Assembly (NCBI GenBank): GCA_017642885.1
Contig: JAEPOM010000003.1
Span: 62,001 to 126,000 of the forward strand
Direction of reading: 5' to 3'
Length of the DNA stretch: 64,000 nucleotides
Origin: Henriciella sp.
GTDB lineage: Bacteria; Pseudomonadota; Alphaproteobacteria; Caulobacterales; Hyphomonadaceae
Positions 2,868 to 22,191 of the stretch are shown here, piece by piece. The notes under the pieces are model-generated. The model saw only the letters and a list, made by a program, of their open reading frames with translations, searched no databases and was not told the DNA's origin. Position numbers and translations under genes: made by a program. Position 1 is the stretch's first letter. The number at the start of each line of letters is the position of its first letter.

Positions 2868-3158
2868 TTAGTCTTCGAACGGCGGGTACATTTCTGCGCC
2901 GTGAAGAACGCGCAAGATGTACAGGCTTTCTGGGCTTAAGATGGCATACACCACAATGTACTTTGTCCCGGGCACAACGAGTTCGCGAGTATCGAGAACT
3001 CGACCTTCTTTTCCAATGAGCGGAAATGTTTCGAGCATTCTGATCGAAGTCGCGATGGCTGAAAGCTGCTTGTGTGATGCAATTGCATTCCGCGGCTCAA
3101 GATAATCTTTGAGCTGGGTAAGATCGGTTTTGGCAGTGGGTGTAAAATAGACGTTCAC
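2868..3158 (-). CDS. parE: ParE/RelE-type toxin
   Basis: A 96-residue protein of the ParE/RelE superfamily. It has the N-terminal FTPTAKTDLTQLKDYL helix, a central helix, the RELVVPGTKYIVVYAI beta strands and the YILRVLHGAEMYP ending typical of plasmid-stabilisation toxins. ParE members poison DNA gyrase and RelE members cleave mRNA on the ribosome; the sequence favours the ParE branch but does not settle it. The start is GTG at 3158, overlapping the antitoxin stop (GTGA), so the two genes are translationally coupled with the antitoxin first. Such modules stabilise plasmids and islands, which fits the replication remnants next door. Confidence 0.8.
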   Translation of the reverse strand: MNVYFTPTAKTDLTQLKDYLEPRNAIASHKQLSAIATSIRMLETFPLIGKEGRVLDTRELVVPGTKYIVVYAILSPESLYILRVLHGAEMYPPFED

Positions 3159-3328: not shown

Positions 3329-3815
3329 ACAAGAAGTATAGCAGATTCTAAGGCTTAGAGGCTAATACTATTTCCAACGCTTGAAGGCACTGTCCGGACG
3401 GCAACTCTTGAACGTTCCCGCATCTCCGGCATGTCAGGTCATGACTTCCCACGTTGGGTTTGTTTGTGCGCCAGTGCTCACGCTTGGCTTTCCTGAAGGC
3501 AAACCCTCGAACTTTCCGCATTCGCCGGGTGCGCCTGTCTATCGTCCGCGTTGAATGTATGCAGAGACATGCAACGTCGGTTTCGCCAATCACTTATGGA
3601 GCGAAGGGGAAGATTTTAAACACCCCTCACCCCAGTGTTTGGGGTTTTAAGATCATTCCTGTAGCGGGCAGTGATGGTCGAATGATGTTTGGTCTGATCT
3701 CTTATGCAATGTTGGCGAGCCTGAGCTGAGGACCAATTGAACAAATCGTTCGCCCGCTGCGTCAGCAGCACCATAGGGCGAATTCCATTGAAGTATGCGT
3801 TAGCATTCAATTTCT
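3329..3815. other. Stretch without a convincing gene
   Basis: Two minus frames (3348-3593 and 3616-3852) and one plus frame (3454-3729) overlap here, and none has convincing composition or a ribosome site. The 3348 frame contains CRRCG, but only one such pair. The 3616 frame overlaps the end of the Rep-like gene by 37 bases. The stretch probably holds decayed plasmid sequence downstream of that gene. Confidence 0.4.
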
Positions 3816-4403
3816 CTATCCGCTTTCGATCTTGATCCCATTTCGACTGCAAATCTGGATCAATCTTCGCTCGAAAGGATCTGGGGATAGAGTGTTTATA
3901 AGAATGTTTCTATTAGTGTCGGACTCTTGTGTCGTGGCCTGATTTCTGCGGCTCACATCCCCAAAAGACTTGTCAGATCGCAGCGACGCTTGCTTCTTAC
4001 TCTGGGAGAAAATGGCGGCCTTGCACAGCACGATGCGCAAGCCAATGACATAGCCCATTCGGTTTGTGACTTTGCGAAAGTATAAGTATCCCTCCTCCGT
4101 AGCATCTCGCAAATAGCGTTGCACCTGCCGTGATGATCGCCCTAGGTGCTTGCCGATGATGCCAAGCGTCGTATCAAGCGGCCGCCCGCCCCCACTCCAC
4201 CCAGCAAGCAAAGCAATCATGCGCAGCGTTCCGGGCGCGATACGTGGGTCCATCACGAGAGACTGCGTGATTGGGAGAACAAATTTCCATCCGCTTTCAG
4301 GGCGTTCGAGGCTCTTGCGCCGCGGGCCCCGCCTCGCCAGGTCGTCGAAGTTTGAAGGCACGTAATATGGCAATGAGGCCATTGCAAAGGACAAGTGTTT
4401 CAT
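3816..4403 (-). CDS. Winged-helix plasmid replication-initiator-like protein
   Basis: About 195 residues. The core (LDTTLGIIGKHLGRSSRQVQ then RYLRDATEEGYLYF) is a winged helix-turn-helix like those in small replication initiators and related regulators of alphaproteobacterial plasmids. Here it follows a segment reading PITQSLVMDPRIAPGTLRMI. I start it at the ATG at 4403, six bases after AAAGGA, rather than at 4409, which leaves no spacing. It is short for an initiator, and the C-terminal tail looks disordered and may be truncated. The DNA-binding coiled-coil gene, GTTGC motifs and toxin-antitoxin nearby support a plasmid origin. A plain transcription factor is the alternative. Confidence 0.5.
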   Translation of the reverse strand: MKHLSFAMASLPYYVPSNFDDLARRGPRRKSLERPESGWKFVLPITQSLVMDPRIAPGTLRMIALLAGWSGGGRPLDTTLGIIGKHLGRSSRQVQRYLRDATEEGYLYFRKVTNRMGYVIGLRIVLCKAAIFSQSKKQASLRSDKSFGDVSRRNQATTQESDTNRNILINTLSPDPFERRLIQICSRNGIKIESG

Positions 4404-4481
4404 AGGCATTCCTTTCTATCGAAGGAAAACCGCACCGTTTGGGCCATACGGTATTATTCGCAAAAACTTCTTGCGTTATAC

Positions 4482-4497
4482 TGTTACAGTGGTAACA
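4482..4497. repeat. Inverted repeat in the Rep-like upstream region
   Basis: TGTTAC, four bases, GTAACA forms a short inverted repeat about 80 bases upstream of the Rep-like start. It sits where a replication or transcription regulator could bind and overlaps the candidate promoter of a plus-strand small RNA. Confidence 0.3.
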
Positions 4498-4556
4498 TAG
4501 GAATTGTTCAGAGACCTACATCACCGATGTATAGACCCGCCCCGGCGGGTTTTCTT
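4490..4556 (+). ncRNA. Candidate short counter-transcribed RNA
   Basis: A -10-like TATACT (4478-4483) lies about 50 bases upstream of a clean intrinsic terminator (4535-4556), with no open frame between. The transcript would be about 65 bases and would run antisense to the leader of the Rep-like gene, the arrangement of copy-control RNAs in plasmids. The -35 element is poor (TTATTC). This is inference from layout only. Confidence 0.2.
4535..4556 (+). terminator. Intrinsic terminator
   Basis: ACCCGC, a four-base loop and GCGGGT, then TTTTCTT. No plus-strand gene lies directly upstream, which is why a short RNA is proposed. Confidence 0.6.
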
Positions 4557-4642
4557 ATGTCCAAGTTTCTAAATACTTGTTGATAATTCATGCGCATGAG
4601 CTGCGCGAGAATCGAATCAATGTTATAGTATTACAAACATAA

Positions 4643-4672
4643 GCAACATTGCAATAGCGTTGCGTGCAACAC
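4643..4672. repeat. GTTGC/GCAAC motif cluster, upstream copy
   Basis: GCAACATTGC, GTTGC and TGCAACAC occur within 30 bases just upstream of the coiled-coil DNA-binding protein. The same motif recurs inside that gene (4877, 4892, 4918, 4928, 4955) and just after it (5174-5226). It may be an iteron or partition-site array, or an autoregulatory operator. Confidence 0.4.
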
Positions 4673-4690
4673 TCTTGAGTATTGAGTTTA

Positions 4691-5173
4691 ATGGGAACGC
4701 CCAAGTACTTCTTATCAATGACAAAAGCGGCATCCTTTGCCGGTGTGAACCGTTCGACAATTCAGCGGCAGATTAAAGCTGGCAAGCTCTCGGCTCAAAG
4801 AGATGACAACAATCAATGGCGAATCGACCCTGCCGAACTGTCGCGCGTTTACCCGGATGCCGGGAAGAAAGAGCCTGTTGCAAATGATGATGCAACGCAG
4901 CGCCAAACCGATGCGTCGCAACATTCCGCAACACCGGAATCAAAGGAAATCATCGCAACATTGCGCACCATGGTTGAAACGCTCGAGCGCAACAATCGAC
5001 GAGAGGTAGAACACCTCAGTGAGACGATTGAGGACTTGCGAGATCGGCTGGACAAAGAAGCTGCTCAAAGCCGCGTATTGACTGCAATGCTGACCGATCA
5101 GCGTGAACAAAAAGAAGAAACCCCCGAGCCAAAGCGTGGAGGCTTCTTCGGCCTATTCTCCGCATCAAACTAG
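4691..5173 (+). CDS. Helix-turn-helix DNA-binding protein with coiled-coil tail
   Basis: About 160 residues. The ORF track starts at a TTG (4682); I prefer the ATG at 4691. The N-terminus carries an excisionase/MerR-like helix-turn-helix (ASFAGVNRSTIQRQIKAGKL). A Ser/Thr/Gln-rich linker follows, then a coiled coil (MVETLERNNRREVEHLSETI), and a GGFFGLF tail. This layout is common in small plasmids of alphaproteobacteria next to rep genes, where it is thought to act in regulation or partition. GTTGC/GCAAC motifs before, within and after the gene are candidate binding sites. It diverges from the Rep-like gene. Confidence 0.6.
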   Translation: MGTPKYFLSMTKAASFAGVNRSTIQRQIKAGKLSAQRDDNNQWRIDPAELSRVYPDAGKKEPVANDDATQRQTDASQHSATPESKEIIATLRTMVETLERNNRREVEHLSETIEDLRDRLDKEAAQSRVLTAMLTDQREQKEETPEPKRGGFFGLFSASN

Positions 5174-5226
5174 GTGTTGCGCATCATTGCGCCGCAACGC
5201 TGTGCAACACTTGCGGCTGTTGCAAC
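5174..5226. repeat. GTTGC/GCAAC motif cluster, downstream copy
   Basis: Starting at the base after the stop codon: GTGTTGC (5174-5180), GCAAC (5194-5198), GCAACAC (5204-5210) and the palindrome GTTGCAAC (5219-5226). GTGTTGC and GCAACAC form an inverted pair 23 bases apart. The rest of the gap to 5462 shows nothing I can interpret. Confidence 0.4.
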
Positions 5227-5462
5227 AAACCACTGCTGCTCAGCTTAAACGGTGCACACCTCTACTTTGGGCAAATTTGGCTCAGGAGGCAGGTAAAACG
5301 ATTTCCCGTCCCAATCCCCAATGCAAGAAGTAAAACTGCCGTCTAGAAGCTTCTATTCGCAATAATGGCGAGCATCACCCTAGGAAGGTTGGGGGCGTTA
5401 GCGACGATTAAAAATACATTGGCGAAACATCGCGCTGTTCCGCCAATTCTCGATTGAAATGA

Positions 5463-6647
5463 CTATTGAGCTTCAAACGAAATTATGTGTTCGGTTCGCA
5501 TCCGCTTGGACAAAGAATTTTCCTTGTTCAAGCTAATAGGCATGTACCGCCTGTTATTGGGTATCTCACGCACTTGCTCATCAACGAGTTTCAAACCAAC
5601 GCTTCGTGCGCAAGATTTCAAAAACTCACTATTTCGAACGTGAGTGTCCTTAATGTTGGAATTCCCGATTACATAGCAAGCATTTGCGCCAGACCGAAGA
5701 ACCCGCGCAGATTCAGCTGTGAGTGCTTTTAGGTCTATGTAGTATCGGAACAGCATCTGTGTTTGCCGACTCGTAAGCTCATTGAGCCCGAGTGCATCAT
5801 GGAGTTCATCAAATTCCTCCGAATCTCGAATGTGCATCGATTTCTCGGATCCGATCGACGTCGCCCGAATCTCGCGCAATTCACGTATGGTATAACCCAT
5901 CCAAACCAGAGACATCTTGTGCCCCCGCATGTAGTCAATCGCATTCAAGTAAGGCGGAGATGTGATTATAGCATCCACCGAGCCGGCCTCTAGCCTCGAG
6001 AGTTGTCGGGCGTCGCCTTTGTAGACCTTGGCATTGGTAAGAATTTCGTGCGGCTTTAGGGCTGATAACATTTGCTCAATCGAGCGATGAAACTCTTCAA
6101 CGATGTCAAAATCGTTCTGTAGGATCGTCCTGTGTGGACGGCTATGAGCGGTGTCTCTAGCTAGCGACGCTTTCGGCTCTTTTGTAACTATAAGCCGAGA
6201 AACCGCAACTTTCATAAAGTCGAGAATCGTTCTGCTTGTTGTAAAGGGGGTCGCGATTAGGTGTAGCGCGAAAGCTCGCAATTGATGTCGCTGTTTTTCG
6301 GCGAACCAATAGTCGATGAACTTCGAAGTCTCCGGGTCAGAATCTATCCAATCCAATGTGATAGATTCCCCTCGCTCACAACTATTCTCAACTTTGTGCA
6401 GCAATTCGTTCGCGCGTTTCCGAATGAGGTCAGGGTTCACGTTTGTAGCGCCGACTTTAGAAATGAGTTTTGCCAACGGGTCGAGGTCGAATCCTATAGG
6501 TTTCATTCCTTTTCGGGAAGCTTGAGATAAAACCATTCCGGATCCAGACATCGGATCGAGCACGACAGAGTCAGGGGCTAACTCCGCAACATGCGCTAGT
6601 GCTATTTCGGGGGCCATCCGAGCCGGAAAGGGGTGTATGTGCCTCAT
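5463..6647 (-). CDS. DNA methyltransferase (SPPY, N4-cytosine/N6-adenine type)
   Basis: 394 residues. The AdoMet-binding motif DPMSGSG is at 31-37, after HPFPARMAPEIA, and the catalytic TSPPY is at 229-233. Motif I therefore precedes motif IV. The serine form of the motif is usual for N4-cytosine enzymes, but N6-adenine members exist. A predicted target-recognition or insert region lies between the motifs. It is the last gene of a three-gene operon and its ATG overlaps the preceding stop by four bases. In that setting it probably marks self DNA while the Z1 protein and the small protein act on foreign DNA. An orphan regulatory methylase is the alternative. Confidence 0.85.
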   Translation of the reverse strand: MRHIHPFPARMAPEIALAHVAELAPDSVVLDPMSGSGMVLSQASRKGMKPIGFDLDPLAKLISKVGATNVNPDLIRKRANELLHKVENSCERGESITLDWIDSDPETSKFIDYWFAEKQRHQLRAFALHLIATPFTTSRTILDFMKVAVSRLIVTKEPKASLARDTAHSRPHRTILQNDFDIVEEFHRSIEQMLSALKPHEILTNAKVYKGDARQLSRLEAGSVDAIITSPPYLNAIDYMRGHKMSLVWMGYTIRELREIRATSIGSEKSMHIRDSEEFDELHDALGLNELTSRQTQMLFRYYIDLKALTAESARVLRSGANACYVIGNSNIKDTHVRNSEFLKSCARSVGLKLVDEQVREIPNNRRYMPISLNKENSLSKRMRTEHIISFEAQ

Positions 6648-7111
6648 GGGGAGACCTGTATCCTGCTTCGCATTGGGTGCAACGCCTCTGCAAGACTATT
6701 TCTTGATATGCGTTTTTCCAAAACCCCATCTCTTCCTTTGATTTGATACATCTTATTATGCCGACGTCTGACGGTTACAGATTCTTGCGCTTCAAAGTTT
6801 TCGTCCAGCACTGCGCGAAAGTCTTGGTGTTTCAGTGCTACGATGCCATCTCGCCCGCATACAAAAATCATGATGCACTCTTTGTGTACTTCCGCCAAAA
6901 ATTGCTGGCGTTCTTGGTGCTCTTTGTGGAACGTGAATTTCCAAGGGCCGCGTCTCTGAGAGGAATACTTGATGTAAATTGGCAGGCGTTCATTCAACAG
7001 ATAAAATCCGGCGAAATCCTCATAAGCTTTTCGAATAGCTACAGAGCCGTCCCACCGATCAACAATGTAAGAAAACACCGCGCCAAAATATCTGGAAGTA
7101 TCGGTGATCAT
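6644..7111 (-). CDS. Unknown 155-residue protein of the Z1/methylase operon
   Basis: I do not recognise this protein. It is alpha/beta, with YFGAVFSYIVDRWDG, a helix, LPIYIKYSSQRRGPWKFTF, a helix (HKEHQERQQFLAEVHKE), a hydrophobic strand (CIMIFVCGRDGIVAL) and a basic tail. The strand-Lys-Tyr-Ser element followed by a basic turn resembles the core of PD-(D/E)XK nucleases, but the acidic residue before the Lys is Tyr here, so catalytic activity is doubtful. It overlaps both neighbours by four bases and must be co-translated with them. It is the obvious candidate for the effector or specificity subunit. Confidence 0.65.
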   Translation of the reverse strand: MITDTSRYFGAVFSYIVDRWDGSVAIRKAYEDFAGFYLLNERLPIYIKYSSQRRGPWKFTFHKEHQERQQFLAEVHKECIMIFVCGRDGIVALKHQDFRAVLDENFEAQESVTVRRRHNKMYQIKGRDGVLEKRISRNSLAEALHPMRSRIQVSP

Positions 7112-8940
7112 TGACGGTTTTGAATGAACTTAATCGAACCGCCGTTGATCTTATAGAACAATCGCGCCTGGCCATGTGGGTTACGAAACACCTTGAGATG
7201 GTGGCGAGCCATCGGCTTATCACCCCGCCGAAATTCATTGTTTGAGAAAATACCTTTCTTACGTCTCAGTGCTCTAACCTCAGTAGCGTCGTAATTTCCA
7301 AGCTTCGTTCCAAATTGACCCGGCTTGTGGAAGCAAATATCCGTACCTCTCAGCTGATCATCCTGCGAGAGATAATCGAACAAGTATTGGGGAAACTGAT
7401 TATTGTTCAACGCTTTTCGCAAGCCGTTCAATGTATCCTTATTTGATCGGCCATTTTGTTCGAACAGGTGGTCGACTTCGTCCGCGTTATAGTCAAATAT
7501 CCCAAAGGACATTTCTCCGCCTTCAAAATCCACCGAAGATTTGTCAATGGACGCCGCTGATGTGGGAGTGGTCTTGTGGTCTGACAGCCAAACCGGCGCA
7601 CCCGATCCGGATCTCATGGCTTGAAGTGCGAGCTTGTGAAACTCGAAACACTTACTCCAGTTTGCCATTAACTCGTCTGGAATCCAGAGCTGAAAAGCGT
7701 CTTTGTAAGCATTTCGGGCACCGAACATTCTCGCACGTTGAATATAGGTGTCTTGAGAGAATTTCCCCTTAACCGCGCGGGTAAAATACATAGACAGCAA
7801 ATTGTCGAATGTGACGCCCCGAGATATAATGTTGCCGCCGGCTCCGAACGAAAACAGGCTTGTCGGTTTCGCGATATCGGCAACAGCTCCACTATCCTTC
7901 TTGGAGTTGATTTCCACTATGTGGTGCTTGTTGATATTGCTCAAAACAAAGTGCATCACGGCATGAGCGTCGCCGTAACCAGCCGCTACCTTTTCAAGAC
8001 GTGACACTAGCCGTGGAAAACTCGGATGATCAGCTTTTGAGAGCACGCTAATCGAGTCTTGGATGACCTTCACGTCTTCACCGTGTTCGCTCTTCTTTCC
8101 GCTAGTATGGGCGAGCATGGTGAAGTTCTTTGAGTTGCCCAAATGATGTTGTTCGGCCACGCCGCACATAAAGTGCATAATCGCGTTTTGGAGTTCGGAC
8201 CGTTCGTTCCCTTCATCGCGAGCAAAAGTTCGAAGGCGATAAGGGACTTCCCCAGAAGACGGGAAAAAGTAATCCTGCCCGACATATGCTGGATGTGGCG
8301 GAAAATCGACCCACAGCTCGCTCACATTCTCGAAAGTGTTGTTCAGATTGAGCCTAGCGGGCGTCGCGGTGACGCCGATATACTGCCCATCTGCGCCCAG
8401 TAAAGTATGGATCAGCTCGTTAATTTTTGTTTTTTCGTCTTTATTTACCTTGGCATTTGGGGACGCGTAGTCCGCCTCGTCATCGATAATCATTAGACCA
8501 GTCTCATGCCTCAGAAGCTCAATTAGCTTTTCAAGATCCCGAGCGTTCTTTTTCGAAAAGATCACCCATTTCTTGCCCTTCAAGTCTGCCGCATTTTTCG
8601 GGAGCTCGCTGAATTGTTTAGGCGACGGGCTCAGCCCGGAGGCTCGAAAACGATCCAAGCTCTGCCGAAGTAAATCTACGCTATCAGTTAGCAAATTGAT
8701 GATTATGGTTGTGCCTTCATCCAGCAATCGTGCATTGAGCGCAATCATCATTTCGGTCTTACCGCTTTGCGGTTCACCAAAAATCACAAACGAACTTCCT
8801 TTGGCAGCTTGGAGATTTTTAACTGTCGATTCAACGGTAGTTTCTATCGACGATGTATCCATGCCGTTGTTTTTTAATCCGGTTATTCGGTCAACGTACT
8901 GATTATTTCCGACATTGCCGACTACACTGGCCCAGTCCAT
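7108..8940 (-). CDS. Z1-domain helicase-like ATPase
   Basis: In the numbering of the 623-residue ORF, it has Walker A GEPQSGKTE at 68-76, Walker B MIIDDEAD at 163-170 and helicase motif III GVTATPA at 202-208. The Z1-domain signature lies at about 378-433 (GGNIISRGVTF, YIQRARMFGAR). Z1 proteins are superfamily-2-like ATPases of bacterial conflict systems, usually encoded with methylases and nucleases. I start it at the ATG at 8940, because GGAG sits seven bases before it, while the ATG at 8979 has no ribosome site; this gives 610 residues. It leads a three-gene operon with four-base overlaps. It likely translocates on or remodels DNA. Confidence 0.8.
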   Translation of the reverse strand: MDWASVVGNVGNNQYVDRITGLKNNGMDTSSIETTVESTVKNLQAAKGSSFVIFGEPQSGKTEMMIALNARLLDEGTTIIINLLTDSVDLLRQSLDRFRASGLSPSPKQFSELPKNAADLKGKKWVIFSKKNARDLEKLIELLRHETGLMIIDDEADYASPNAKVNKDEKTKINELIHTLLGADGQYIGVTATPARLNLNNTFENVSELWVDFPPHPAYVGQDYFFPSSGEVPYRLRTFARDEGNERSELQNAIMHFMCGVAEQHHLGNSKNFTMLAHTSGKKSEHGEDVKVIQDSISVLSKADHPSFPRLVSRLEKVAAGYGDAHAVMHFVLSNINKHHIVEINSKKDSGAVADIAKPTSLFSFGAGGNIISRGVTFDNLLSMYFTRAVKGKFSQDTYIQRARMFGARNAYKDAFQLWIPDELMANWSKCFEFHKLALQAMRSGSGAPVWLSDHKTTPTSAASIDKSSVDFEGGEMSFGIFDYNADEVDHLFEQNGRSNKDTLNGLRKALNNNQFPQYLFDYLSQDDQLRGTDICFHKPGQFGTKLGNYDATEVRALRRKKGIFSNNEFRRGDKPMARHHLKVFRNPHGQARLFYKINGGSIKFIQNRQ

Positions 8941-8979
8941 GCCTTCGCTCCAAATAACCCTTGCGACGCATATATTCAT

Positions 8980-9792: not shown

Positions 9793-12700
9793 TTATTCTG
9801 CCTTTAGCCGAATAAGAAGTTCTTTTGCGTCGACGTCGTCGCCCGGCTGAACCGCTACGAACTCAACTATACCATTCGAAGCTGATTGAAGTGTGGATTC
9901 CATCTTCATGGCTTCCATTGCGATCAGTACATCTCCCTTTTTGATCTTGTCACCGATTTGCACCGCAACCGATACTATTCTCCCCGGCATCGGGGCGCCA
10001 ACTTGATTGACATCCTGTGGATCGGCCAGAGGACGGGAAGAAGATACAACGGCAGCAACATCTTCTTGTACTTTTATTGTTCGTGGTTGACCATTCAGTT
10101 CGAAGAAGACGCTATGCCATCCAGTTTCAGATCTTTCGGAAACACTGACCAGGGTTATTTCCAATGTCTTGCCTTTTTCAAGCTCAACTGAAATGGATTC
10201 GCCTGGATTCATACCATAGAAAAAAACGGGCGTCGGTAGGGCACTCACAGGACCATATTGATTCAAGTGAGCGCGGTAGGTTGCGACAATTTCGGGGTAC
10301 AGGGTCGCGCTGATCGTTTCTTGATCGCTTGGCCTGCGACCGTCCTCACAATGAGCAAGGTTTGCTTCTATGGAAGAGAAATTTGCTGGTTCCAATTTCG
10401 CCCCGGGTCGTTCAAGGAGAGGTTTGTGACCTTTAAGCGCTTTCTTTTGAAGCGTCTTAGGCCACCCTCCTTTGGGTTGACCAAGTTCACCGCGTAGCAT
10501 GGAAATGGTTGAATCAGGAAAGGCGACGTCCTTCGCTGGGTCCTCGACATCTTTCCGACTGAGACCTTGGGAAACCATCATTAATGCCAAATCACCAACG
10601 ACTTTCGAAGATGGTGTGACTTTGACGATGTCACCAAACATCATATTCGCCTGGGCATATGCGTCTGCGATTTCAGCCCACCGATCGAGTAACCCAAGAC
10701 TCGCGGCTTGGGCTTGCAAGTTAGTGAACTGTCCGCCCGGCATCTCGTGAAGATAAACTTCAGATGCCGGGGCCTTATTCTCAGTTTCAAACGCCGCGTA
10801 TTGCGACCGAACCGCTTGCCAATAATTTGAGATCTCTCGCACCGCGTATGGATCTAAACCTGTGTCCCTGGGTGAGAACTTCATCGACTCGACCAACGAA
10901 CCAAGACAGGGTTGAGAGGTGGTCCCGGACAAAGAGTCCATTGCCGTGTCCACAATATCGACTCCGGCTTCGCTTGCGGCAAACAGTGTAGCGGCCGAGA
11001 TTCCACTTGTGTCGTGTGTGTGCAAATGAAGCGGCAATCCAGTCGCGGCCTTGAGTTCTTTGACCAGTAATCTAGCGGCATCGGGTTTCAATAACCCGGC
11101 CATATCTTTTAACCCCAATATGTGAATGCCCTGCGATTTAAGATCGATTGCTAGCTCGACATAGTAATCGAGGTCATACTTCGTTCGCGCCGGATTAAGG
11201 ACATCTCCAGTATAGCAAATTGTGCCCTCGCAAACACGTTCGCTCTCCAGCACCGCGGCAATCGCTACCTTCATATTCTCGGTCCAATTGAGACTATCGA
11301 AAACACGAAACAAGTCCACACCAGTCTCTGCTGCGCGCGCGACGAATGCCTGCACCACATTGTCTGGATAGTTCTTGTAACCAACCGCGTTTGAGGCACG
11401 CAGCAGCATTTGCAGAAGTATATTGGGCACTTTTTCGCGGATTTCGGTGAGCCGCTGCCACGGGTCTTCTTTCAGAAAGCGGTAAGCCACATCAAATGTA
11501 GCTCCGCCCCAACACTCGAGGGAAAATAGGTTATGCAGCTTGTCAGCATAAACAGGCGCAATTTTGAACATATCATAACTGCGCATCCGGGTTGCGAGCA
11601 GAGACTGGTGCGCATCGCGCATCGTGGTATCAGTGACCAAAAGCCGGTTTTCCCCCAGAACGTAATCGGCGACGGCTTGAGGTCCTTTCGTCTCTAGAAG
11701 CGTTTTTATTCCTTGAGGACATGGCGTCTGGTGAAGTTTTGGTACATTCGCTCGGCGGAAACCTTCCGGGCGAGGGCAATTTTTAACGTCCGGGTGACCG
11801 CGTACCGTGGTTTCTGCGATATAGGTGAGAAGCTTGGTTGCTCGATCCTTACGATTAGAAAAATTGAATAAGTCAGGCGTCGTGTCGATGAAATTTGTCG
11901 TGTAATTCTCATTCAAAAAGCCAGGATGCCTTAGCAGGTTCCCCACAAAATCGATGTTCGTACTGACCCCGCGCACGCGGAATTCGCGCAATGAACGATC
12001 GAGTCGCGCGAGCGCGATTTGAGAGCTCTGTCCCCAGGCTGTGACTTTGGCGAGCAGGCTATCGTAGAAACGCGTGATGACGGCTCCAGAATAAGCTGTT
12101 CCGCCATCCAAACGAATTCCCATACCATTTGCGGGCCGATAGGCGGTGATGCGACCATAGTCGGGAATGAAGTTGTTTTGCGGATCCTCGGTCGTCACCC
12201 GGCATTGTATGGCATGTCCATTCAATGGTACGTCGGCTTGAAAGTTGATACCGGTCGCCTCGGCTAGCGCGACCCCACTCGCGATCAAAATCTGAGCGCG
12301 CACAATATCAATGCCTGTAACTTGTTCGGTGACGGTGTGCTCGACCTGCACGCGCGGATTCACTTCAATGAAAAAGAACTCACCCGAATCCATATCCATC
12401 AAGAACTCGACGGTTCCTGCATTGCAATACTTCACGTGGCTGCCAATTTTTTTTGCGAGCGCGCACACGTATTCTCTTTGTGTTTGATTCAAATACGGTG
12501 CCGGCGCTCGTTCCACGACTTTCTGGTTTCGGCGCTGGATTGAGCAGTCGCGTTCCCAAAGATGAAAAAGGTTCGCGCTAACGTCACCTAAGATTTGCAC
12601 CTCAACATGCCGTGCCCGCTCAATCAGCTTCTCTAGAAATCCTTCTCCATTTCCAAACGCTGTTTCAGCCTCTCGTCTTCCCTCAAGAATATTGCGTTCC

Positions 12701-13236
12701 AGCTCTTCCGGACCAGAGATAGCGCGCATCCCTCGGCCTCCTCCGCCCCAAGACGCTTTCAGCATGAGCGGATACCCGATCAATGCGGCTTCCTTTTTTA
12801 TCTGATCAAAATCATTTCCCAGAACGCCGCTGGCGGGAATGACGGGCACACCGGCCTCAATCGCTATTCGCCGAGCCGATGCTTTATCCCCAAGCTGACG
12901 CATGGTCTCCGATTTTGGCCCAATAAAGACCAGACCCGCGGCGTCGCACGCGTCTACAAAGTCTGGATTTTCGGAGAGAAATCCATACCCGGGATGGATC
13001 GCATCTGCGTTGGCGTGCTTCGCCACGCGAATAATTTCATCAACTTCCAGATAAGCTTCTACCGGCCCCAGATCTTCGCCAATTAGATAGGATTCATCCG
13101 CTTTGAAACGATGAAGCGCGAGCCGATCCTCTTTAGAATAGACGGCGACCGTTTGCAGTCCCAACTCATTAGCTGCGCGCATGACACGGATGGCGATTTC
13201 ACTTCGATTGGCAATCAGGATTTTTTTAATGGGCAT
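9793..13236 (-). CDS. pyc: Pyruvate carboxylase
   Basis: 1147 residues, full length for the single-chain enzyme. It catalyses ATP- and biotin-dependent carboxylation of pyruvate to oxaloacetate. The biotin carboxylase domain comes first (IANRSEIAIRVMRAANELG; ATP-grasp KASWGGGGRGMR near 160-171). The carboxyltransferase domain follows (TMRDAHQSLLATRMR near 535-550), then the PYC/OADA domain, and a biotinyl domain with EAMKMES, biotin on Lys1111. It is the last gene of the TonB/glyoxalase-dioxygenase/dld/acs operon, 144 bases after acs. In that setting it would refill oxaloacetate from the pyruvate made by Dld. Its AT content is higher than that of the acs before it. Confidence 0.97.
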   Translation of the reverse strand: MPIKKILIANRSEIAIRVMRAANELGLQTVAVYSKEDRLALHRFKADESYLIGEDLGPVEAYLEVDEIIRVAKHANADAIHPGYGFLSENPDFVDACDAAGLVFIGPKSETMRQLGDKASARRIAIEAGVPVIPASGVLGNDFDQIKKEAALIGYPLMLKASWGGGGRGMRAISGPEELERNILEGRREAETAFGNGEGFLEKLIERARHVEVQILGDVSANLFHLWERDCSIQRRNQKVVERAPAPYLNQTQREYVCALAKKIGSHVKYCNAGTVEFLMDMDSGEFFFIEVNPRVQVEHTVTEQVTGIDIVRAQILIASGVALAEATGINFQADVPLNGHAIQCRVTTEDPQNNFIPDYGRITAYRPANGMGIRLDGGTAYSGAVITRFYDSLLAKVTAWGQSSQIALARLDRSLREFRVRGVSTNIDFVGNLLRHPGFLNENYTTNFIDTTPDLFNFSNRKDRATKLLTYIAETTVRGHPDVKNCPRPEGFRRANVPKLHQTPCPQGIKTLLETKGPQAVADYVLGENRLLVTDTTMRDAHQSLLATRMRSYDMFKIAPVYADKLHNLFSLECWGGATFDVAYRFLKEDPWQRLTEIREKVPNILLQMLLRASNAVGYKNYPDNVVQAFVARAAETGVDLFRVFDSLNWTENMKVAIAAVLESERVCEGTICYTGDVLNPARTKYDLDYYVELAIDLKSQGIHILGLKDMAGLLKPDAARLLVKELKAATGLPLHLHTHDTSGISAATLFAASEAGVDIVDTAMDSLSGTTSQPCLGSLVESMKFSPRDTGLDPYAVREISNYWQAVRSQYAAFETENKAPASEVYLHEMPGGQFTNLQAQAASLGLLDRWAEIADAYAQANMMFGDIVKVTPSSKVVGDLALMMVSQGLSRKDVEDPAKDVAFPDSTISMLRGELGQPKGGWPKTLQKKALKGHKPLLERPGAKLEPANFSSIEANLAHCEDGRRPSDQETISATLYPEIVATYRAHLNQYGPVSALPTPVFFYGMNPGESISVELEKGKTLEITLVSVSERSETGWHSVFFELNGQPRTIKVQEDVAAVVSSSRPLADPQDVNQVGAPMPGRIVSVAVQIGDKIKKGDVLIAMEAMKMESTLQSASNGIVEFVAVQPGDDVDAKELLIRLKAE

Positions 13237-13380: not shown

Positions 13381-15339
13381 TCAGGTGCATTCGCGGTTCT
13401 GCCTGTTCTCGATCAAATCCTCGACCACTTCCGGTTCCGCCAGGGTCGAGGTGTCGCCGAGATTGTCGAAACTGTCTTCGGCGATCTTGCGCAGGATGCG
13501 GCGCATGATCTTGCCGGAGCGAGTTTTGGGTAGGCCGGCGGCAAACTGGATGAGATCCGGTGAGGCGATCGGGCCGATCTCCGTCCGGACATGCTGGACC
13601 AGGCTCTTCTTCAGCTCGTCATTACCCTCGACGCCCGCGACCGGAGTCACATAGGCATAGATGCCCTGACCCTTAATCTCATGCGGATAGCCGACCACCG
13701 CGGCCTCAGCGACCGCGTCATGGGCGACCAGCGAGCTTTCCACTTCGGCGGTCCCCATACGGTGGCCTGAGACATTGATCACATCATCGACCCGGCCCGT
13801 GATCCAATAGAATCCATCCTCGTCGCGCCGGCAGCCATCGCCGGTAAAATAAGTGCCGGGATAGGCCGAGAAATAGGTCTCGATGAAGCGCTGATGGTCG
13901 CCATAGACGGTGCGCATCTGGCCTGGCCAGCTTTTCGTGATGATCAGATTGCCTTCCGTGGCCCCGGCTAACTCTGCGCCCTCGGCATCCACCAGTTTCG
14001 GCTCGATCCCGAAGAAGGGATGGCTGGCCGCGCCGGGCTTCATGTCTGTCGCACCAGGCAGCGGCACCATCATGCAGGCGCCAGTCTCGGTCTGCCAATA
14101 CGTGTCGACGATCGGGCAGCGCGCCTCACCCACCGTGTGATAATACCATTCCCAGGCTTCTGGATTGATCGGTTCGCCAACTGAGCCGAGGAGGCGCAGG
14201 CTCGACCGGCTGGTTGATCTGACCGGTCCCTCGCCTTCGCGCATCAGGGCGCGGATCGCCGTCGGGGCGGTGTAGAAGATCGTCACCTGATGCTTGTCGC
14301 AGGCCTGCCAGAAGCGGCTCGCATCCGGATAAGTCGGCACGCCCTCAAACATCATGCTCGTGGCGCCATTGGCGAGCGGGCCATAGACAATATAGCTATG
14401 CCCGGTGACCCAGCCGACATCGGCCGAGCACCAGTAGACATCGCCTTCCTTCAGGTCGAAGACATATTCATGGGTCATCGAAGCCCAGACCAGATAGCCG
14501 CCGGTGGTGTGCAGCACGCCTTTTGGTTTGCCAGTTGAGCCTGACGTATAGAGGATGAAGAGCGGATCTTCGGCATTCATCGGCTCAGGCGGGCAATCAG
14601 AGCTGACCTCAGCGCCGGCCTCATGCAGCCAGATGTCTCGTCCGTCAGTCATGTTCACGGGATTACCGGTGCGGCGCACGACGAGGACTTTCTCGACCAG
14701 GCCGCCAGCCAGGTCGCAGGCCGCATCGGCATTCTTCTTCAGCGGCACGATCCGGCCGCCGCGCACGCCTTCATCGGCGGTGATCATGAACTGGCTGTCG
14801 CAATCGGTGATCCGGCCCGCCAGCGCCTCCGGCGAAAACCCGCCAAAGACAATCGAGTGGACCGCCCCAATCCGAGCACAGGCCAACATCGCATAGGCCG
14901 CCTCCAGGATCATCGGCATATAGATCGTCACCCGGTCGCCCTTCTTGACGCCCATCTCTTTGAGGACATTGGCAAACCGGCAAACCGCGCCATGCAGCTG
15001 CTTGTAGGTCACTGTCGCATCATCAGACGGGTCATCGCCTTCCCAGATGAGCGCCACCTTGTCGCCGCGGGTCGCAAGGTGGCGATCAATGCAATTATAA
15101 GCGACATTCAGCTCGCCATCCGAGAACCAGCGCACATGCAGGTCTGACTTGTCCCAGGACACATCCTTGACCTTTGTGTAGGGCTTCGACCAGTCGAGCC
15201 GCTTGCCTTGTTCGCCCCAGAATGCCTCCGGGTCGGCAATCGACGCGGCATACATTTCGCGATATTGCTCAGGCGAGAGATTGGCCTTTGCGGCAAAGTC
15301 CGAAGGGACGGGATATGATAGTGTTTCAGCGTTGGCCAT
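13381..15339 (-). CDS. acs: Acetyl-CoA synthetase, island copy
   Basis: AMP-forming acetate-CoA ligase, about 652 residues. Visible landmarks are the P-loop [17 protein letters not shown], the hinge region [13 protein letters not shown], and the C-terminal [11 protein letters not shown] whose lysine is the usual acetylation site. The ATG at 15339 is preferred over the upstream TTG at 15357. It lies 31 bases after dld and activates acetate, one of the two products expected from the Dke1-like domain upstream. The protein is about 95% identical by eye to the copy at 31316-33259, and the gene is more GC-rich than its operon neighbours, so it was probably recruited from, or converted by, the other copy. 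Confidence 0.97.
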
Positions 15340-15370
15340 ATCAGTCGAATCCTTCAATCTACGAAGTCAC

Positions 15371-22146: not shown

Positions 22147-22191
22147 TTGCCAAGGTTGGGGTCGAGAGTTCGAATCTCTTCGCCCGCTCCA
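22147..22191 (+). other. 3' half of tRNA-Gly(GCC): likely island attachment site
   Basis: The sequence starts in the anticodon loop TTGCCAA and continues through the anticodon 3' stem, variable loop, T-arm (GAGAG-TTCGAAT-CTCTT) and acceptor strand CGCCCGC-T-CCA. This is the 3' half of a glycine tRNA with anticodon GCC. The preceding 35 bases (AATGACTTAATGGAAGTCGG...) do not form a D-arm or acceptor 5' strand, so there is no complete tRNA here. Tyrosine integrases insert elements into tRNA 3' halves and leave such an orphan copy at the far end. The orientation puts the intact tRNA to the left, with the element between. Confidence 0.8.

Follow-up and report, generated by a model that had tools for sequence, protein, structure and literature searches.

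A GTTGC/GCAAC array overlapping a helix-turn-helix, coiled-coil gene in a Henriciella integrative element, the candidate site of a one-gene maintenance system

The window, a stretch of 64,000 nt from Henriciella sp., takes in the right end of an integrative mobilizable element that spans 29.7 kb and sits at tRNA-Gly(gcc) (C33:54473-84191, from L054 12424 to window position 22191). The element carries an integrase adjoining the tRNA gene, a MobA/VirD2-type relaxase, NikA/MobC and, at L054:17821, a 726-aa open frame that we take as a putative coupling protein; its counterpart in L056 matches T4SS-DNA_transf. In another genome of the genus (G028) this tRNA likewise harbours a related element, in which a rep-like gene and a helix-turn-helix (HTH) + coiled-coil gene again form a divergent pair (Table 1); the pair recurs in L055 and L056. 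The rep-like protein, which has no direct family match itself, is 45% and 49% identical to the L055 and L056 proteins, themselves weak HTH_36 matches, and a rep role is suggested by this homology. The terminator hairpin between the two genes is common to the window, L055 and L056, and the structured RNA candidate is possibly a copy-number control RNA; an Rfam search of 3700-5400 returned no RNA family and one chance-level match. Elsewhere on the window lie a ParE/RelE-type toxin gene (2868-3158), with its antitoxin partner probably just upstream, and a putative restriction-modification-like set at 5463-8979, comprising a type II-type DNA methyltransferase, a small protein (phrog_28860) and a Z1-domain helicase with an MzaC-like C-terminal part. 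The element's cargo includes a pyruvate carboxylase gene (9793-13236), which has a close match in none of 40 relatives, and an acetyl-CoA-synthetase-like gene (13381-15357).

Table 1. Features of the array locus and the right end of the element (window positions).
Feature	Position	Strand	Evidence
Rep-like HTH protein, divergent from the HTH + coiled-coil gene	3816..4409	-	L055, L056 homology
Candidate structured RNA, antisense to the rep-like leader, with a terminator (4533-4552) at its end	4440..4555	+	fold z -3.0
Palindrome TGTTACAGTGGTAACA between the two genes	4482..4497	.	read in sequence
Upstream cluster, three sites (4643-, 4659+, 4666-)	4643..4670	.	word count, chance test
HTH + coiled-coil gene, 160 aa, ATG at 4691	4691..5173	+	HTH_17, NF038291, AlphaFold
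Winged helix-turn-helix, residues 10-53, MerR-like	4718..4849	+	AlphaFold, Foldseek
Linker, residues 54-81, low-confidence (disordered)	4850..4933	+	AlphaFold
Intragenic cluster, six sites (4877+, 4892-, 4918-, 4928-, 4955-, 4989-), three frames	4877..4993	.	counts, synonymous permutation
Long helix (coiled coil), residues 82-143	4934..5119	+	AlphaFold
C-terminal tail PKRGGFFGLFSASN, putative membrane-binding peptide	5129..5170	+	family tail motif, MinD likeness
Downstream cluster, five sites, inverted repeat 5174-5191/5193-5210	5174..5226	.	
attR, 26-bp exact copy of the tRNA-Gly(gcc) 3' end; right end of the element	22166..22191	+	

The HTH + coiled-coil gene, for which an in-frame TTG at 4682 is a possible alternative start, encodes a protein whose N-terminus matches Pfam HTH_17 (E 9.7e-7; 29.4 bits, above the cut-off of 27). 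The domain plan was taken from an AlphaFold model built from the window sequence alone (mean pLDDT 79). The recognition helix of the winged HTH reads VNRSTIQRQI, and the best Foldseek matches of the model, BldC-DNA, RacA-DNA and phage Xis, were obtained via the HTH only, at E 0.008 or worse. The linker, modelled at pLDDT 52-55 over residues 61-80, is encoded by the stretch where the intragenic array is densest. The C-terminal tail is basic, aromatic and similar to the C-terminus of E. coli MinD (KKGFLKRLFGG, from its genome), which suggests a putative membrane contact. Across the family an aromatic/hydrophobic pair motif is present in 121 of 134 tails, usually beside basic residues, and the tails take two main forms, GFWKRLFG and WWPWKR.

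The protein matches NCBIfam NF038291 (rep_pAB02_ORF2) at E 7.4e-14 with 52.5 bits, the curated cut-off being 85, and all 24 aligned relatives match the same family at E <= 0.01 (best 1.1e-20). Judged by this similarity, the window protein is beyond doubt related to the NF038291/Exc1-like family, though it falls under the curated cut-off. With the window protein as query 522 plasmid records had a match, and with a Morganella member 2572; the matched proteins include 'entry exclusion protein 1' and the Acinetobacter 'plasmid replication DNA-binding protein'. The former name derives from ColE1 exc1, whose entry exclusion role was later excluded, according to work cited in PMC3832669. Exc1-like, 'repA'-ORF2 and NF038291 proteins belong to one family with the window protein, present on many small plasmids, and their gene typically lies beside rep. 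Maj 2013 found the Exc1-like gene conserved beside different REP modules and called its function undetermined (PMC3832669), as did Lean and Yeo 2017 for the ORF2 gene conserved beside rep (PMC5559437); neither paper describes an array for the family gene. Searches for further loci with the single window protein and with alignment A1 returned zero related loci, and a closer alignment returned 80 genome and 9 viral loci.

The array at 4643-5226 comprises exactly 14 GTTGC/GCAAC words, where 1.3 are expected. The preliminary description had spoken of a dozen or more such words before, within and after the gene, and the count agrees, placing them in three clusters. The window mean is 1.3 per 584 nt and the maximum outside the array locus is 6; the whole window holds 145 words where 157 are expected, and with no overall excess the clustering is local. 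The best 6-mer is TGTTGC, with 11 of its 44 window copies inside the array locus, and close pairs of TGTTGC are found genome-wide twice at this locus and as single instances at seven other places. The 80 nt upstream of the gene hold 3 sites against 0.18 expected, significant by itself, and the 80 nt downstream hold 5 against 0.18 (P 1.4e-6). Within the coding sequence TGTTGC is present 5 times, compared with 0.95 when the gene's own codons are permuted and 0.45 under window codon usage, above all 5000 shuffles in each case. The shorter GTTGC gives a weaker excess, with 6 copies against 2.6 (own codons permuted, p 0.011) and 1.4 (window codon usage, p 0.0006).

Comparison with codon-matched shuffles was the test on which the array had been said to stand or fall and, with TGTTGC above every shuffle, its reality is confirmed both locally and against codon-matched sequence. 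Since A, T and Q abound in the linker, the array might be put down to low complexity or codon choice. Such an artefact is scarcely credible, however, given the excess over synonymous shuffles, the use of three frames, the sites in both flanks and the different words that relatives hold at the same place, and we count it as already contradicted.

Relatives on plasmids, where it had been proposed to look for the same array, do carry arrays in the same places, with differing words. The word is the same in pFER1 (40% identity over the matched part), where 13 of 21 plasmid copies lie at the family gene; other relatives use GGTCA, GTTCC, CTTGC, GTCAC, GTTTC or TGTAA. Their sites concentrate in two places, the region immediately preceding the gene and the part that encodes the linker, and they fall in every frame and on either strand. 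The upstream cluster is at -70 to -1, and the densest one lies 130-230 nt into the gene. Among 20 loci chosen because they have arrays, site density was 32.1/kb in the linker, 17.2 upstream, 2.6 in the coiled coil and 2.2 in the rest. Adjacent sites are spaced with peaks at 10, 5 and 25 bp. The inverted pairing that the first description had stressed exists in the downstream cluster of the window, but in relatives adjacent sites mostly point the same way (186 of 284 pairs are '--').

Because it is free of selecting loci for arrays, we used a split test that counts linker words recurring in the upstream region of the same gene. Across 41 loci, at most 75% identical though not independent draws, 745 recurred against 156 +/- 47, the maximum among 20,000 permutations being 385; the new loci gave 683 against 217 +/- 48. 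A control on the last 137 nt of the coding sequence gave a slight excess (263 against 190 +/- 23); composition thus accounts for a minor share, short of the several-fold effect. A clear array was absent in many relatives (e.g. L009, L020, L026, L027, L031, L033, L038-L040). A maximum 6-mer test at p<=0.05 picked out 19 of 51 loci, one of them (L050b) a non-member, and 19 of 129 control ORFs; since these controls are over-dispersed (15%) and a non-member is included, our conclusions rest instead on the split test, the prediction test and the synonymous permutations. In the 31 loci of the window's word class, 161 intragenic sites were counted against 77 +/- 7 under synonymous permutation, in three frames, and an excess was also found in three other word classes. 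Related loci encode the same word via different amino acids (e.g. AT, QH, RN), indicating that the word is kept and the peptide is not.

The word also follows the recognition helix. The helix cores N..TIQR, TITR, TIHR, TILK and TISK go with GTTGC, CTTGC, GTTCC, GGTCA and GTTTC, respectively. These predictions were fixed in advance and then applied to 89 newly fetched loci, where each of the five classes with several members was enriched, 5 to 17-fold, in the word predicted for it: 38.2 against 2.2/kb for TIQR/GTTGC, 33.8 against 3.1/kb for TIHR/GTTCC, 23.1 against 1.7/kb for TILK/GGTCA, 14.8 against 2.0/kb for TISK/GTTTC and 14.6 against 3.0/kb for TITR/CTTGC. Twenty testable new loci encode proteins no more than 70% identical to those of the earlier loci; in 11 of these strict loci the predicted word alone ranked first of six, and over all 20 a total of 80 predicted words were found against 34.8 +/- 10.9, the maximum of 20,000 label permutations being 79. 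Several misses differ (N to S) at a second helix position that matters too, the residue three places ahead of the T, which is N, S or A, and GTTGC is read by N-TIQR loci but by no S-TIQR loci, a refinement made after the fact. The sibling element L055 has SKMTIQR with GTTAC copies where the window has NRSTIQR with GTTGC. An all-pairs correlation of helix and word at 25-50% identity fell short of significance (p 0.054).

The recurrence of words at the same places, their dependence on the helix and the intragenic excess over synonymous shuffles together argue that the array words are very probably binding sites of the encoded protein. The earlier suggestion of a partition or replication site overlapping the gene of its own binder therefore holds in so far as the words behave, by sequence criteria, as binding sites; partition is the more conjectural part. 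The locus resembles a module for plasmid maintenance that has been retained within an integrative element, and we regard it as fairly probable that array and protein form the cis-acting site and the effector of a one-gene maintenance system that tethers or spreads DNA, with autoregulation from the upstream sites. In this model the winged HTH would read TGTTGC-type sites, many about 10 bp apart, the coiled coil would oligomerise the bound copies, and the basic, aromatic tail would meet the membrane once the protein had multimerised. The element DNA would then be tethered or spread and so kept through cell division while it exists as a circle, excised or plasmid-like; through the upstream sites the protein would in addition regulate its own level. 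The tethering or partition role taken separately is somewhat favoured. The window copy is now chromosomal, where partition is unneeded, and some family members lie on ColE1-type replicons with Rop, which are usually multicopy; both facts count against partition.

The main rival is autoregulation alone, with the sites as an extended operator through which the protein represses itself and perhaps rep. The upstream cluster just before the gene is likely also its operator, relatives have theirs in the corresponding place, and for KfrA of RA3 the binding target is a set of five 9-bp repeats in its own promoter (PMC7783346). We nevertheless consider autoregulation as the sole function unlikely: the densest cluster in relatives lies inside the gene, the window also has sites behind it, and a repressor needs neither so many sites nor a conserved basic, aromatic tail. 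KfrA moreover affects plasmid maintenance too (PMC7783346), and one role need not preclude the other. An accessory role in replication, in which the array would be part of the origin or a handcuffing site for it, is suggested by the position next to rep in many plasmids and by the NCBIfam name 'plasmid replication DNA-binding protein', yet it appears rather improbable. The minimal replicon of the Acinetobacter plasmid pMAC does not include its family member ORF2 (PMC5559437), which makes a direct role in replication less likely, and the gene is found with different REP modules (PMC3832669). That the winged HTH resembles Xis/BldC, in an element with an integrase and a relaxase, could point to an excisionase or a conjugation regulator. 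This is very unlikely, the array being 12 kb from attL and 17 kb from attR, and an excisionase role was rejected because the same gene and array are present on 4-8 kb plasmids with no integrase annotated in the incomplete PLSDB gene tables.

For the preferred maintenance reading, B. subtilis offers a comparable case, in that the partition site parS lies within spo0J/parB, which encodes the protein that binds it; that is a single palindromic site of the ParABS type. Scanning of neighbouring proteins (window 0-9.7 kb) gave no match to the ParA, ParM or TubZ families, and in the incomplete gene tables of small plasmids such as pFER1 no motor NTPase is listed. By analogy, the window protein would work like pSK1 Par and RocS. 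The staphylococcal one-protein partition system pSK1 Par has, as described in PMC11500499, an HTH, a coiled coil and a membrane-type tail from one gene, a plan resembling the one predicted for the window protein. Par differs in having DUF536; matches to this domain were listed neither for the window protein nor among the 25 families shown for 24 members. A profile match to pSK1 Par (8csh) was weak (E 0.003) and an HTH-only profile against the PDB did not find it; given these results, filing the protein as a Par homologue was rejected. RocS of S. pneumoniae also joins an HTH to a coiled coil and has a MinD-like amphipathic tail needing oligomerisation for the membrane (PMC11500499), but it is chromosomal, longer and has DUF536. 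TubY of type III par systems likewise combines a MerR-like HTH, a coiled coil and a tail that binds membrane only as an oligomer (PMC7762940); it works with TubR and TubZ, whereas no such partners were noticed in the annotations examined. R388 StbA is, by its description, a DNA-binding protein that with its repeat arrays (stbDRs) stabilises a plasmid, StbB being unneeded for stability; its 9-bp DRs lie around the operon promoter, and it is reported to be without ParB-like homology (PMC3098194). KfrA (RA3, RK2-like) is an autoregulating alpha-helical HTH protein with a long helix and a repeat operator (PMC7783346); the operator, however, is only in the promoter, and its partners are IncC/KorB and KfrC.

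Taken further, and tentatively, the proteins named Exc1, 'repA' and ORF2 might be a large, mis-annotated one-gene partition family, with a centromere partly inside linker codons and a helix-to-word code. For a gene whose role was left open in PMC3832669 and PMC5559437, the arrays let the bound DNA be predicted from a few helix residues. If partition is true, many small plasmids thought to segregate randomly would own a compact anchoring system, with protein and site overlapping in one stretch that is movable as a cassette. The helix-to-word code may also set compatibility between co-resident plasmids. One genome (G434) has five family members (L041, L044, L047, L048, L049), each with a different recognition helix, as expected if the word sets compatibility; a counter-example is Salipiger marinus (L075, L090), with two N-TIQR members. 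In a Tritonibacter plasmid record (L017) the same protein accessions occur twice, at 744-1175 and 4893-5324, and this appears to be a tandem duplication of the whole replicon, possibly a dimer or an assembly artefact.
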